Origin: a bacterium
Lineage (GTDB): Bacteria > Patescibacteriota > Minisyncoccia > JAHIHE01 > JAGLIN01
Direction: 5' to 3'
NCBI GenBank assembly: GCA_030638825.1
Contig: DAOWDU010000021.1
Span: forward strand, 1-35,598
Length of the DNA stretch: 35,598 nucleotides
Shown one piece after another: positions 9,056 through 14,745 of the stretch (positions are counted from its first letter, which is position 1; the number at the start of each line of letters is the position of its first letter). Under the pieces are notes generated by a model, which ran no database searches, was not told where the DNA came from, and was given only the letters and a program-made list of their open reading frames with translations. Both the position numbers and the translations under genes were made by a program.

Positions 9056-10513
9056 ATGTTTGAACAGGCGTTAAAAAATATTGATAATATTCTCAGAGCA
9101 GATAATGCGGGAGGCGCTCTTGATTATATTGAGCAAACTTCGTGGATTTTGTTTTTGAAATATCTTGATGATTTGGAAGAAACTAAAAAGACCGAAGCGG
9201 CGCTGGCGGGAAAAAAATATAACTATATCTTGAGTCCCCAATATAAATGGAGCGCTTGGGCATGTCCGAAAACCGTTGACGGAAAACTTGATCATCAGAA
9301 AGCTTTTGATGGCGATGATTTGAGGGATTTTGTGAATCTGAAACTTTTTCCACATCTGAAAACATTTAAGATGTCCGCTGAAAATTCGGACACTGTTGAA
9401 TATAAAATCGGAGAAATTTTTAGCGAATTAAAAAACAAAATTCAAAGCGGATACGCGCTTCGCAAAATCTTGAATATTGTTGACGCTTTGCATTTTCGCA
9501 CGGAAGAAGAAAAGCACGAATGGTCGCATTTATACGAGAGTAAAATTAAAGGAATGGGCAATGCGGGGCAGGATGGCGGGCAATATTATACACCGCGACC
9601 GCTAATTAAGACGATTGTAAAAGTAGTTAATCCAAAAATCGGGGAAACAATTTATGACGGCGCATGTGGCTCTGCTGGATTTTTGGTAGAAGCCTTTGCT
9701 TATTTAAGCAAGGACAGAGAAAAGCTTTCATCAAAAGATTGGGAAGTTCTTCAGAAAAAAACTTTGTATGGAAAAGAAAAAATTTCACTTCCGTATATTA
9801 TTGGTATTATGAATATGATTTTGCATGGAGTTGAAACGCCGAATATTAAACGGACAGATACACTTGCGGAAAATATTAATGACATTCAAGAAAAGGATCG
9901 TTATGATATTGTTCTTGCAAATCCGCCTTTTGGAGCAAAAATGGGACGAGAACTTCAACAAAATTTTCCTATTAAATCTAGTGATTCCGCTTTTTTGTTC
10001 CTTCAACATTTTATCAAAATTCTCAAAGCAGGCGGACGAGCGGGGATTGTTATTAAAAATACTTTTTTGAGCAATACTGACAATGCGTCTGTTAGTTTGC
10101 GAAAACTCTTGCTGGAAAGCTGTAATTTACATACCGTGCTTGATTTACCAGGCGGAACTTTTACGGGCGCTGGAGTAAAAACGGTGATTTTGTTTTTTGA
10201 AAAAGGAGCGCCGACAAAAAAGATTTGGTTTTATCAGCTTAATTTAGATAGAAATCTTGGGAAAACAAACGCTTTGAATGAAAATGATTTGGCGGAATTT
10301 GTGGAACTGCAAAAAAATAAAAAAGACTCTGAAAATTCTTGGAGCGTAGATACTTCCACCCTGAGCTTGTCTAACGGGTTTGATTTGTCAGTAAAAAATC
10401 CGCATAAAAATGATGAAATTATTTTGCGAGAACCGAAGGAGATTTTGGAGGAGATGGGGGAGTTGGACAAAGAGAGCGAGAAGGTCTTGAATAAAATTAA
10501 GAGATCTTTATAA
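9056..10513 (+). CDS. hsdM: Type I restriction-modification DNA methylase, M subunit
   Basis: GQYYTPRPLIKTIVKVVNPKIGETIYDGACGSAGFLVEAF, catalytic NPPF (ANPPFGAKMG). Confidence 0.96.
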   Translation: MFEQALKNIDNILRADNAGGALDYIEQTSWILFLKYLDDLEETKKTEAALAGKKYNYILSPQYKWSAWACPKTVDGKLDHQKAFDGDDLRDFVNLKLFPHLKTFKMSAENSDTVEYKIGEIFSELKNKIQSGYALRKILNIVDALHFRTEEEKHEWSHLYESKIKGMGNAGQDGGQYYTPRPLIKTIVKVVNPKIGETIYDGACGSAGFLVEAFAYLSKDREKLSSKDWEVLQKKTLYGKEKISLPYIIGIMNMILHGVETPNIKRTDTLAENINDIQEKDRYDIVLANPPFGAKMGRELQQNFPIKSSDSAFLFLQHFIKILKAGGRAGIVIKNTFLSNTDNASVSLRKLLLESCNLHTVLDLPGGTFTGAGVKTVILFFEKGAPTKKIWFYQLNLDRNLGKTNALNENDLAEFVELQKNKKDSENSWSVDTSTLSLSNGFDLSVKNPHKNDEIILREPKEILEEMGELDKESEKVLNKIKRSL

Positions 10514-10598: not shown

Positions 10599-11654
10599 AT
10601 GATCAAAGACAGATTAAACAAAAGAATAAAACTTTCAAATGAGATGATTTTGAAAATTGCTCAGATTGATGAGCTAAAAGGGCGATGGAGCGGCTCTCTT
10701 TCTTTGAATCCAAAAATTTTGCATCAGTTAAAAAAAACAGTCATAATTACCAGCTCAGCTTCGTCCACTCGTATTGAGGGAGCAAAAATGACCGATCAAG
10801 AAGTGGAACGATTTTTGCGTGGTATTAAACAGAAAACGCCGAAAAATAGGGACGAAGAGGAAGTGGCTGGATATGCTGATTTACTGGGAAGAATTTTTGA
10901 TAATCACAAGAGTTTGAAAATCAGCGAGAGCGGAATTTTAGAGTTGCATAAAATAATGCTGGTTTTTTCCAAGAAAGATAAAGAGCATTATGGAAAATAT
11001 AAAACCAGAGATAATACTGTGGCTATTATTGAAAAAGGCAAGATTAAGAAAATTCTTTTTCAGCCAACCGCGCCGTGGTTGGTAAAAAAAGAGATGGATG
11101 ATCTGTTTGAGTGGCAGAAGGAAAGGCAAGAAAAAAAAGATCTGCATTCTTTAGCAATTATCGCGAATTTCATTTTTGAATTTTTAGCGATCCATCCTTT
11201 TATTGACGGCAACGGACGGCTTTCGCGAGCTTTGACTAATTTGATGATGTTGCAAAATGGTTATGGATTTGTTCCTTATGTTTCTCTGGAAGAGATTATT
11301 GAAGAAAAACAAGTGGAGTATTATTTGTCTTTAAGGAAGACACAAAAAAATCATAAAACCAGAAATGAAGACATTACGCCTTGGCTAAACTTTTTTTTAG
11401 ACGCTGTTTTAGCGCAAATTGAAAAAGCGTTGAATTTGCTGGAAGGGAAAGAAAACAGAAAACTGCTTTCAGGAGCGCAAGAAAAAGTTTATGATCTATT
11501 TATTGGCGGTATTGAATTAAAGGTTTCCGAAATTCAAAAGAAAACAAAAATTCCAATGCCGACGGTGAAGCAGTCCGTGTCTAGATTGGCGGAATATAAA
11601 ATGATTGAAAAAATCGGGCAGGGTTCGGCGACGAGGTATAGGGGGATGAAATAG
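10599..11654 (+). CDS. Fic-domain protein (class II type: N-terminal inhibitory helix) with C-terminal wHTH
   Basis: Fic motif HPFIDGNGRLSR; inhibitory motif STRIEG (S/TxxxE[G/N]); C-terminal KVSEIQKKTKIPMPTVKQSVSRLAEYKMIEKIG. Confidence 0.93.
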   Translation: MIKDRLNKRIKLSNEMILKIAQIDELKGRWSGSLSLNPKILHQLKKTVIITSSASSTRIEGAKMTDQEVERFLRGIKQKTPKNRDEEEVAGYADLLGRIFDNHKSLKISESGILELHKIMLVFSKKDKEHYGKYKTRDNTVAIIEKGKIKKILFQPTAPWLVKKEMDDLFEWQKERQEKKDLHSLAIIANFIFEFLAIHPFIDGNGRLSRALTNLMMLQNGYGFVPYVSLEEIIEEKQVEYYLSLRKTQKNHKTRNEDITPWLNFFLDAVLAQIEKALNLLEGKENRKLLSGAQEKVYDLFIGGIELKVSEIQKKTKIPMPTVKQSVSRLAEYKMIEKIGQGSATRYRGMK

Positions 11655-11692
11655 TGGAGTTTAGTCAGAAGGATATTTGGAAGTTAATTAAA

Positions 11693-11784
11693 ATAAAAAA
11701 CCGCCATTTCTGACGATCTTTTATAACACTTGGTTACGGTTTGGAAAACATTGACCGTGAGAGAGCAAAGCCCTCCAAGTGTTA
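11693..11784 (-). ncRNA. Candidate free-standing small RNA, ~90 nt, three-way-junction fold plus intrinsic terminator
   Basis: Minus strand: TAACACTTGG-AGGGCTTTGCTCT-..ACGGT..ACCGT..-CCAAGTGTTA-TAAAA-GATCGTC-AGAAAT-GGCGGTTTTTTATTT; P1 10 bp, P2 5 bp, P3 5 bp, terminator hairpin with T6. Confidence 0.6.
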
Positions 11785-11789
11785 GCTAT

Positions 11790-11817
11790 AGTGTAGCAGA
11801 GATTATTTTCTTGTCAA
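11790..11817 (-). promoter_or_regulatory. Promoter for the candidate small RNA
   Basis: Minus strand TTGACA (11817-11812), 16-bp spacer, TACACT (11795-11790); expected start coincides with 5' side of P1. Confidence 0.6.
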
Positions 11818-12137
11818 TGGGGGTTTGTGGATAAAGTTTGTCAGGAGGATATTCAGGGTTGATTGGATGATTTTAATCTTGCTTTTGCGGGGTGGAAAAA
11901 GGATATTATTGGATGTGTAGTTTTTGTGAGGGAGAAAATTAAAGAAAAGGATTGAAAAATAAGGATTTTTTTATAATTTTTATTAGATTAAATATATAAG
12001 GTATTTTAAGGAAAGATAGCTAAAGTAAGCTGTTTTTTTATATCATAATTTTTAACACTTGACATTTATCTTTTTAAAGATTATTATATAAAAGTAAAAA
12101 GTTTATTTTATCTGATATTAATAGTGTTTTTGGCAAC

Positions 12138-12196: not shown

Positions 12197-12550
12197 ATGA
12201 AAAAAAATGAACAAATTATCAAGAAAATAGAAATACTTTTGATAGAATTAAAGCAATCTCTAAATATAGAGAACGAAATTTCATTGTATGATGGTAAACA
12301 TAAAATAATCCCCAATCAAAAACAGCAATTTTCTGGTCTTACTGGGAGTATTTATGAATTAATAGAAGAAGGATTTTTAAATGATCCTAAAACAATATCC
12401 GATCTACAAAAAAAATTAAAAGATAGAGGTATTAAAAAACCGACTACTAGTCTTATGCCATCATTAAAAATTCTAATTATCAAGAAAGTGCTTGACAGAA
12501 ACAAGCCTAAAAAGGGTTTATATCAATATTTTAAAAGACAACAATTATGA
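12197..12550 (+). CDS. Small winged-helix-like protein A (117 aa)
   Basis: C-terminal GLTGSIYELIEEGFLNDPKTISDLQKKLKDRGIKKPTTSLMPSLKILIIKKVLDRNKPKKGLYQYFKR aligns by eye with the two following ORFs; ATGA overlap with next ORF. Confidence 0.75.
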   Translation: MKKNEQIIKKIEILLIELKQSLNIENEISLYDGKHKIIPNQKQQFSGLTGSIYELIEEGFLNDPKTISDLQKKLKDRGIKKPTTSLMPSLKILIIKKVLDRNKPKKGLYQYFKRQQL

Positions 12551-12897
12551 AAAAAAATGCAAAACAATTAGCAGATAGTATAATTACTCAAACGATAGAA
12601 CTTGCTAAACTTGCTGGAGTTAACATTGAAATACCTAAAGCGAAAATTCAATATAATCAAAAGAATAGCCGAAAAGGTACAGCTGGTGCAGCTGGTGGTT
12701 TAAGGATTTTGGTTGATGAAGGTTATTTTAATGTTCATAAACAGCTTTCGGAAATTATTGAAAAATTAAAACAAGAAGGCAGACCATATTCAAATGCAAC
12801 AATCTCAATGGGATTGCTGAATCTTGTTAAAGAAAGAATATTAATGCGATTTCGTGATAATGGTGATAAAAAGTGGAAATATATAATTAGAAAATAA
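12547..12897 (+). CDS. Small winged-helix-like protein B (116 aa)
   Basis: GAAGGLRILVDEGYFNVHKQLSEIIEKLKQEGRPYSNATISMGLLNLVKERILMRFRDNGDKKWKYIIR; overlaps previous ORF by ATGA. Confidence 0.75.
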   Translation: MKKNAKQLADSIITQTIELAKLAGVNIEIPKAKIQYNQKNSRKGTAGAAGGLRILVDEGYFNVHKQLSEIIEKLKQEGRPYSNATISMGLLNLVKERILMRFRDNGDKKWKYIIRK

Positions 12898-12901
12898 ACT
12901 C

Positions 12902-13576
12902 ATGTTGAATGTAAATAAAGTAACTTTAAAAAATGCATCAGAAGCTCTTAGAGTTCTATGGGCAGAAGAGTTTTTTAAAAGTTGGCGGAATTTATCTTCC
13001 ATTTCTGATGAACTTAGTAGTCGTGGAAATAATTTTCTATCAAAAGATCTTTGTGTTGCGTTATTGCGTGCAAAGTTTTTGACTCGTCGTGGCAAGCGAG
13101 GTTTTTTTGAATATGCTCAGAAAAAAAATGCTGTCAGTAAAGAAATAAAAAATATAGAACATAATTTATTTTCTGATGATTTAGTAAAGAAACTTGGAAA
13201 AGCATTTATGGTAGAAATAGAAGATTTGCGGCTTAATTTTGGAAAAAGTGGTAATTGTACAGCTTTTTTATTAAGAAAAATTTTAGAAAAATTAATTTAT
13301 ATTACTTTTGCAAAAAATAATCTTTTAGAAAAATTAGAAAATCAAAATAGCGTGGGCAAATTGATTGGATTAAAGTCTATGATTAACAAAGCATCGTTGG
13401 AAAAAATCAAGGGTACTCCGTTTATTACGCCAAAGACAGCTCAAGAAATTAACGGAATTAAATTTTTAGGTGATGTTTCGGCACATAACCCCCTTGTCAA
13501 TGTTGATATGAAAACGATAATACCTCAAATGCCGTATATTATAACTGTGTATAAAGAATTGTCTCAAAAACTATGA
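12902..13576 (+). CDS. wHTH-like N-terminal domain fused to helical, possibly DUF4145/HEPN-like C-terminal domain
   Basis: N-term ALRVLWAEEFFKSWRNLSSISDELSSRGNNFLSKDLCVALLRAKFLTRRGKRGFFEYAQK; C-term IKFLGDVSAHNPLVNVDMKTIIPQMPYIITVYKEL; ATGA overlap with hsdS. Confidence 0.65.
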   Translation: MLNVNKVTLKNASEALRVLWAEEFFKSWRNLSSISDELSSRGNNFLSKDLCVALLRAKFLTRRGKRGFFEYAQKKNAVSKEIKNIEHNLFSDDLVKKLGKAFMVEIEDLRLNFGKSGNCTAFLLRKILEKLIYITFAKNNLLEKLENQNSVGKLIGLKSMINKASLEKIKGTPFITPKTAQEINGIKFLGDVSAHNPLVNVDMKTIIPQMPYIITVYKELSQKL

Positions 13577-14745
13577 CTTGGCAAACAAAAAAACTCGGTG
13601 AAGTTTGTGATGTAATTGCTGGACAATCTCCAGAAGGAAAATATTATAATAAAATTTGTAAAGGACTGCCTTTTTATCAGGGTAAAAAAGAATTTACAGA
13701 AAAATTTATTGGAGAGCCAAAAATATGGACAACAAGGATCACAAAGGAAGCTGAAAAAAATGATATTTTAATGTCAGTAAGAGCTCCAGTCGGTCCGATA
13801 AATTTTGCAACTCAAAAAATTTGTATTGGACGAGGGCTAGCGGCAATTCGCACAAGCAAAGAAATTGATGTAATTTTTTTATTTTACTTTTTAAAAAATT
13901 TTGAAAGCGAAATCATTGGCAATCATGGAGCGGTTTTTAATTCAATAAATAAAAAACAAATTGAGGAAATCCAAATCCCTCTCCCATCTCTCTCAATCCA
14001 AACGCGCATTGTCAAAATTCTTGATGAAGCATTTGCTGAAATAGAAACAGCCAAGAAAAACGCAGAGAGAAATTTGCGGAACGCCAAGGAACTTTTTGAA
14101 TCGTATTTGCAGGAGATTTTTAATAGTAAAGGGGATGAGTGGGAGGAGAAAAAATTGGGAGATATTTTTCAAATAAAACCATCAAAGAAAGAAGCGAAAG
14201 AAAAATTGAAAGATAATGACTTAGTTTCGTTTTTACCAATGGCAGATTTAGGAATATCGCAAAAAGATGTAATAGCAAAACAAGAAAGAAAATTAAAAGA
14301 AGTTTCTGGAAGTTATACATATTTTGCGAATGAAGATGTTTTGTTGGCGAAAATTACACCATGCTTTGAAAATGGAAAATTGGGAATTGTGCGAAATTTA
14401 AAAAATGGAATTGGTTTTGGTTCCAGTGAATATATTGTTTTTCGTTCAAAAGGCGAAGTAGTTCCTGATTATTTATATTATTTTTTGGCACGCAATCAAT
14501 TTAAAAAAGAAGGAGCAAAAAGAATGTCAGGAGCTGTTGGTCACAAAAGAGTTTCAAAAGGATTTATAGAAGAAAGTATTTTGCTATTCCCAAAATCTCT
14601 CACCACCCAAAAACAAATCGTCGCCAAACTTGACGCTCTCTCCGCTTCAACCAGAAAACTTGAAAAAAACTATCAGCGGAAAATTGATGATTTAGGCGAA
14701 TTGAAAAAATCAGTTTTGAAAAAAGCGTTTGAGGGGGAGTTGTAA
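13573..14745 (+). CDS. hsdS: Type I restriction-modification specificity subunit S, two target-recognition domains
   Basis: WQTKKLGEVCDVIAGQSPEGKYYN...ILMSVRAPVG...LPSLSIQTRIVKILDEAF and second half EWEEKKLGDIFQIKPSK...TTQKQIVAKLDALSA. Confidence 0.94.
   Translation: MTWQTKKLGEVCDVIAGQSPEGKYYNKICKGLPFYQGKKEFTEKFIGEPKIWTTRITKEAEKNDILMSVRAPVGPINFATQKICIGRGLAAIRTSKEIDVIFLFYFLKNFESEIIGNHGAVFNSINKKQIEEIQIPLPSLSIQTRIVKILDEAFAEIETAKKNAERNLRNAKELFESYLQEIFNSKGDEWEEKKLGDIFQIKPSKKEAKEKLKDNDLVSFLPMADLGISQKDVIAKQERKLKEVSGSYTYFANEDVLLAKITPCFENGKLGIVRNLKNGIGFGSSEYIVFRSKGEVVPDYLYYFLARNQFKKEGAKRMSGAVGHKRVSKGFIEESILLFPKSLTTQKQIVAKLDALSASTRKLEKNYQRKIDDLGELKKSVLKKAFEGEL

Follow-up and report, generated by a model that had tools for sequence, protein, structure and literature searches.

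In the window analysed here, the 35,598-nucleotide contig DAOWDU010000021.1 of a member of the Patescibacteria (assembly GCA_030638825.1), we found a small RNA that is encoded on the minus strand, folds into a three-way junction and is framed by promoter-like and terminator-like sequences. Its family appears to be previously undescribed, as judged against Rfam 15 and the open-access literature, and is almost always encoded tail to tail with a gene for a small LPD3-like protein, the two genes forming a module found across Patescibacteria and in at least one gammaproteobacterium. The genome of the window has one copy of the RNA and none of the protein. The reading that we favour, with about even confidence, is that of a mobile RNA-protein module in which the RNA restrains a toxin-like protein, the RNA of the window being an orphan antitoxin.

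Structure, strand and transcription signals of the RNA

An earlier note, made from the sequence alone, had proposed at this place a free-standing noncoding RNA (ncRNA) of no recognised family, with a promoter, three stems (P1 to P3) and a terminator hairpin, all on the minus strand. Each of these elements was recovered there (Table 1). The -35 box TTGACA (11817-11812) and the -10 box TACACT (11795-11790) are separated by a 16-nt spacer, and 5 nt lie between the -10 box and the start of P1. Transcription is predicted to begin near 11784-11785 and to stop near 11693. The minimum free energy of positions 11784-11690 read as RNA was -33.0 kcal/mol, as compared to -16.4 ± 2.9 for shuffled sequences (z -5.79, 0 of 200 shuffles), while the plus-strand fold of the same locus reached a z of -2.33 only. 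No Rfam family matched the RNA at the gathering score and permissive thresholds gave chance matches only; Rfam 15 run on the window and on ten homologous loci returned transfer RNAs (tRNAs) only, besides a ribosomal protein L10 leader elsewhere in the window (RF00557, 23766-23894, just above the gathering score).

A BLAST search of 54 relatives led to one clear relative (G052, 73% identity over 72 nt), whose differences from the window RNA are compensatory. A covariance model was built from these two sequences, the window copy being shortened by six loop bases for the model alignment only, and recovered 24 strong homologues, the two founders counted, from 384 genomes of the same class; its E-values are rough owing to a short calibration. 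After addition of later loci, 73 distinct RNA sequences were aligned. Among the related loci, L032/L147 has the RNA nearest to that of the window. In this alignment, which is fitted to the model and contains related, non-independent sequences, 97.9% of the cells are paired, and 14 of the 20 pairs show changes on both sides. None of the shuffled alignments attained the observed pairing or double-change values, and sliding the structure by 1-3 columns lowered the pairing to 29-48%. When the relatives are read on the minus strand, G.U cells outnumber A.C cells by 140 to 17, which fixes the RNA strand as minus, in agreement with the fold energies. The three-way junction is thus supported by covariation, and its nested form explains the counted pairs, to which tertiary pairing may be added. 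The conserved part consists of the bases around the junction, the P3 loop being variable in length.

The transcription signals are conserved as well. A promoter-like match of at least 8 of 12 positions at a fixed distance was present in 68 of the 73 homologues versus 6% of random windows, with the end of the -10 box sitting 4 nt before the model start in 51 copies, and a downstream hairpin with a T-run was present in 71 of 73 versus 21% of random windows. The terminator of the window may be bidirectional, owing to its A-rich 5' side. Each locus has one unit of about 60 nt, with no tandem repeats and no guide-like variable segment, the closed junction leading directly into the terminator. Two well-separated copies occur in L139 (L139:191-250 and L139:3511-3570), about 3.3 kb apart on the same contig, the second adjoining the protein gene. 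Homologues, compensatory changes and conserved signals bear out the free-standing RNA, and the Rfam searches agree with its having been unrecognised.

DnaA-box-like 9-mers (TGTGGAYAA or TTRTCCACA) were observed at most 100 nt upstream of 22 of the 73 distinct RNAs, that of the window included, and often abut the -35 box; among 115 other TTGAC-type promoter-like sites of these loci, just 5 have such a 9-mer. Control linked to DnaA is one possible meaning, a promoter feature common to these bacteria in general another.

Several other candidates and identities were discarded. The pattern CTTGGAGGGCTTTG with one mismatch gave, in the 54 relatives, chance matches besides the two known copies; the pattern TTGGAGGGCTTT-N-CCAAG gave 66 matches in viral contigs, all chance by the covariance model; and L053-L058 turned out to be matches to tRNA genes. 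No copy was found with RNA core patterns in viral contigs or by blastn in plasmids. A riboswitch was rejected, as no gene lies downstream on the RNA strand, and so were a small-protein mRNA (no conserved frame), a signal recognition particle, 6S or tRNA-like RNA (no Rfam match) and a transposon end. Mimicry of an anticodon arm by P3 (7-nt loop UAUCCAA) was given up, since neither the length nor the sequence of the loop is constant.

Linkage to a convergent LPD3-like gene

In about 19 of the first 24 homologues, a gene of about 160 codons on the opposite strand ends right behind the RNA terminator; its products range from about 140 to 165 amino acids (aa). When 368 genomes were sampled evenly from the class, 33 had the RNA and 40 the protein; 26 had both, where 3.6 would be expected (Fisher p 1.4e-23). 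In each of these 26, the two genes are neighbours on one contig and lie on opposite strands, with a separation of mostly 34-38 nt. The distribution is patchy (about 9-11% of genomes). A search with the protein only, an alignment-based scan of named genomes in which the RNA was not used, yielded 74 loci, nearly all from Patescibacteria (mainly Parcubacteria lineages) plus Thiocapsa sp. KS1, and the RNA model found a strong RNA at the same place in about 62 of them; the loci from contig retrieval and from the genome search overlap.

The proteins lacking a match to the RNA model belong mainly to one diverged subfamily from WWE3, Woesebacteria, Jacksonbacteria and Thiocapsa, which, where inspected, has a three-way-junction RNA of diverged sequence in the same position. 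Such RNAs, beyond the reach of the model, were recognised by inspection at L184-L187, L189, L190, L192, L193 and L198 and at most of L207-L225. When 18 diverged RNAs were aligned without the model, 95.2% of the cells were paired, a percentage biased upward by their selection on fold, and 11 of 14 pairs had changed on both sides, which is the stronger evidence. A protein without RNA was seen at L180, and such cases look rare. At L189, from the gammaproteobacterium Thiocapsa sp. KS1, the diverged protein is likewise paired with a three-way-junction RNA, and the layout is the same; like L127 and L131, it is an example of a well-formed module. Two further contigs, L136 and L139, labelled Nitrospira and Rhizomicrobium, bear Patescibacteria-type modules; they are probably mis-binned, and otherwise would point to horizontal transfer.

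The RNA occurs without the protein in 7 of the 33 RNA-bearing genomes. Among the orphans other than that of the window, L029/L267 has a tRNA in the partner's slot, L039/L266 (G106) a convergent gene for a RelE-like protein of 110 aa beside a SocA/Panacea antitoxin gene, and L050/L265 an NYN protein; further orphans are L052/L264, L262 (with a transposase-like gene) and L263. The normal partner is kept at L044, which is of the same genus as L039/L266. At L263 (G256), the orphan RNA is of the diverged type, and behind it part of its sequence occurs once more. Truncated or stop-interrupted protein genes next to an intact RNA were also found, e.g. in G038, G042, G100, L188, L191 and L196.

In the window, the RNA lies inside an R-M (restriction-modification) locus as the earlier note had it, type I genes flanking it by Pfam in the order HsdM, Fic, RNA, three small open reading frames (ORFs), HsdS, second Fic, HsdR. 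A Fic-domain gene thus occupies the slot where L040 and L041 have the LPD3-like gene (hsdM, LPD3-like protein, convergent RNA, hsdS). A short frame behind the Fic stop codon has its own stop roughly as far from the RNA as partner genes normally do, and its resemblance to the L044 C-terminus hints faintly at a remnant of the partner gene. Similar nesting in R-M loci is seen in L133, L140 and L145, and L176 has the module between mod and res of a type III R-M locus. The three small ORFs of the window (12197-13576; 117, 116 and 224 aa) have no Pfam match and are preceded by one perfect TTGACA-16-TATAAT promoter and one near-perfect one.

Table 1. Features of the RNA locus in the window.
Feature	Position	Strand	Basis or remark
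Sigma-70-type promoter of the RNA, TTGACA-N16-TACACT	11790..11817	minus	TG precedes -10
Three-way-junction RNA core, P1 + P2 + P3	11724..11784	minus	fold z, covariance-model homologues, covariation
P1, UAACACUUGG/CCAAGUGUUA	11784-11775 / 11733-11724	minus	
P2, AGGGC-UUU-GCUCU	11774-11762	minus	
P3, ACGGU-N13-ACCGU	11758-11736	minus	13-nt loop
Intrinsic terminator hairpin GAUCGUC-AGAAAU-GGCGGUU + U-tract	11693..11724	minus	fold, sequence
DnaA-box-like TTATCCACA	11826..11834	minus	just 5' of -35
hsdM, type I R-M	9056..10513	plus	Pfam
Fic-domain gene, 351 aa, placed between hsdM and RNA where the LPD3-like partner would lie	10599..11654	plus	Pfam Fic 1.7e-16
Possible C-terminal remnant of the lost partner gene, SEGYLEVN-stop	11665..11691	plus	resembles L044 HEGVLEED-stop
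hsdS, type I R-M	13573..14745	plus	Pfam

Identity of the partner and proposed role of the RNA

Pfam LPD3 (PF18798) gave weak matches in 35 of 63 members of the protein family (best E 3.6e-7), those shown individually scoring 14-25 bits, below the gathering cut-off of 27. NCBIfam and PADLOC returned nothing convincing, and PHROGs weak partial matches only, to families with no assigned function. AlphaFold models of two subfamilies (pLDDT 87.4 and 88.9) predict a compact alpha/beta fold, which runs from a helix through two short strands, a helix with an invariant His and two helices to four antiparallel strands, the last of which holds invariant Lys, Phe and Ser; the invariant residues H47 and S137 lie in helix 42-49 and strand 133-140, and R57 and K133 are invariant as well. 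In a reading of our own, this predicted fold agrees with the BECR RNase core as described in words by Iyer et al. (2017, PMC5512222), with an extra helix before the core and two helices between its parts, and suggests with moderate strength that the protein is a nuclease. PBECR4 was tried as a bridge to BECR and had no match in 116 Patescibacteria. Relatives of the protein were not found in viral contigs, phages or plasmids.

We favour an RNA antitoxin because a structured RNA is locked to a small protein, has its own promoter, is patchily distributed and outlives the protein. Further points in favour are the retention of the RNA in diverged relatives and beside broken protein genes, the BECR-like arrangement of the predicted protein fold and the recurrent nesting of the module within R-M operons. 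The LPD3-like partner would be a small RNase-like toxin, and the RNA, expressed from its own strong promoter and folded into a compact three-way junction, would bind it through the conserved junction and hold it inactive, in the manner of type III-like RNA antitoxins. In the window, the protein gene would have been lost or replaced by the Fic gene with the RNA unit left intact, and the orphan antitoxin might continue to guard the cell against copies of the module arriving from outside. We find it plausible, somewhat short of an even chance, that this is a previously unknown kind of toxin or defence module under RNA control, in which an LPD3/BECR-like nuclease is encoded convergently with a three-way-junction RNA. 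Such a module would be widespread in Patescibacteria and occur beyond them as well, and its orphans would serve as stand-alone immunity RNAs or be re-paired with other toxins such as Fic.

Several points weigh against a restrained RNase toxin. All Foldseek matches in the Protein Data Bank (PDB) had E > 0.1, with no BECR enzyme among the matches listed; no PDB chain was matched by profile or by fold, and the ToxN/AbiQ fold was not encountered. The sole convincing structural matches were viral LPD3 proteins, and the paper that defines LPD3 omits it from the LPDs thought to be enzymatic (PMC5512222). The correlation of RNA and protein distances (Mantel r 0.54), which in itself speaks for the favoured reading, is confounded by shared ancestry. 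R-M genes lie nearby at 15 of 74 loci versus 3 of 30 controls, an enrichment that is not significant and was rejected as a general property of the module. Finally, the protein could be an RNA-binding effector switched on by the RNA.

The last point amounts to an alternative in its own right, which we consider unlikely: the RNA would be a cofactor or scaffold activating the LPD3-like protein in a defence ribonucleoprotein, not an inhibitor. Tight linkage and probable co-evolution would suit any obligate ribonucleoprotein, but the RNA has no guide-like segment, and orphan RNAs persist while RNA-less proteins look rare, so that an antitoxin fits better than an activator.

It is improbable that the RNA is a cis regulator of the neighbouring gene, acting as a 3'-end antisense or through a shared bidirectional terminator, with its fold being secondary. 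Such a role would fit the convergent layout, in which the terminator is shared and lies 34-38 nt from the stop codon. However, the RNA core is located beyond this terminator, the covariation and the G.U/A.C asymmetry indicate selection on an RNA fold of one strand, the dedicated promoter is conserved, and the RNA persists where the gene is gone.

There is also a slim prospect that the RNA was recruited to control the adjacent Fic gene in the window and, in L039, the RelE-like toxin beside the Panacea gene. In each of the two loci, a gene of a toxin family fills precisely the convergent slot, next to an intact RNA unit. Each replacement is a single case, however, the two genes concerned share no relationship, and the toxin-like gene of L039 has its own Panacea-type neighbour. 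A housekeeping or global-regulator small RNA, near these genes by chance, was already disfavoured and is very improbable: the complete transcription unit and the partnerless window copy would suit it, but no more than about 9% of the genomes of the class have the RNA, and its occurrence tracks the protein.

Comparison with known systems

Whatever its role, the RNA represents a covariation-supported family that Rfam 15 does not contain. Its protein partner is defined, and the RNA biology of the phylum in which it occurs has hardly been explored. We know of no sequence relation between the partner protein and the anticodon nuclease PrrC. Both are RNase-type toxins, predicted in our case, that occur at R-M loci, the module lying between hsdM and hsdS in several of them; unlike what is proposed for the module, it is the linked R-M enzyme that keeps PrrC silent (PMC2610378), a protein complex and not an RNA.

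With the LPD3 domain of phage polyvalent proteins (PF18798), the partner shares weak, repeated sequence matches and convincing structural ones, but it is a solo, chromosome-borne protein of about 140-165 aa that is paired with an RNA. If the antitoxin reading is true, LPD3, so far a domain without an assigned function, would gain a testable one.

AbiF/RCd22 is an RNA antitoxin system outside the classical type III, in which an abiF-motif RNA directly binds and neutralises the neighbouring toxic Abi_2 protein (PMC12373285). Our module resembles it in having a structured ncRNA that adjoins a protein gene, and differs in its RNA and in its protein family, Abi_2 being linked to Cas13 ancestors.

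The type III toxin-antitoxin systems (ToxIN, CptIN, TenpIN, AbiQ; PMC5086642) likewise are patchily distributed and pair a structured ncRNA with a small endoribonuclease, which in our case is predicted. Their RNA lies upstream of the toxin gene in one operon under a single promoter, whereas here it is convergent, downstream of the protein gene and under its own promoter. Unlike type III antitoxins, it is a single three-way junction with no tandem repeats and no predicted pseudoknot, though tertiary pairing may occur, and the protein is LPD3-like and not ToxN-like. As its anatomy differs, the module is not filed as type III, but only as something that probably works in a similar way. If so, RNA antitoxins would extend to a toxin family, an RNA fold and a gene layout unlike those of all three type III families.
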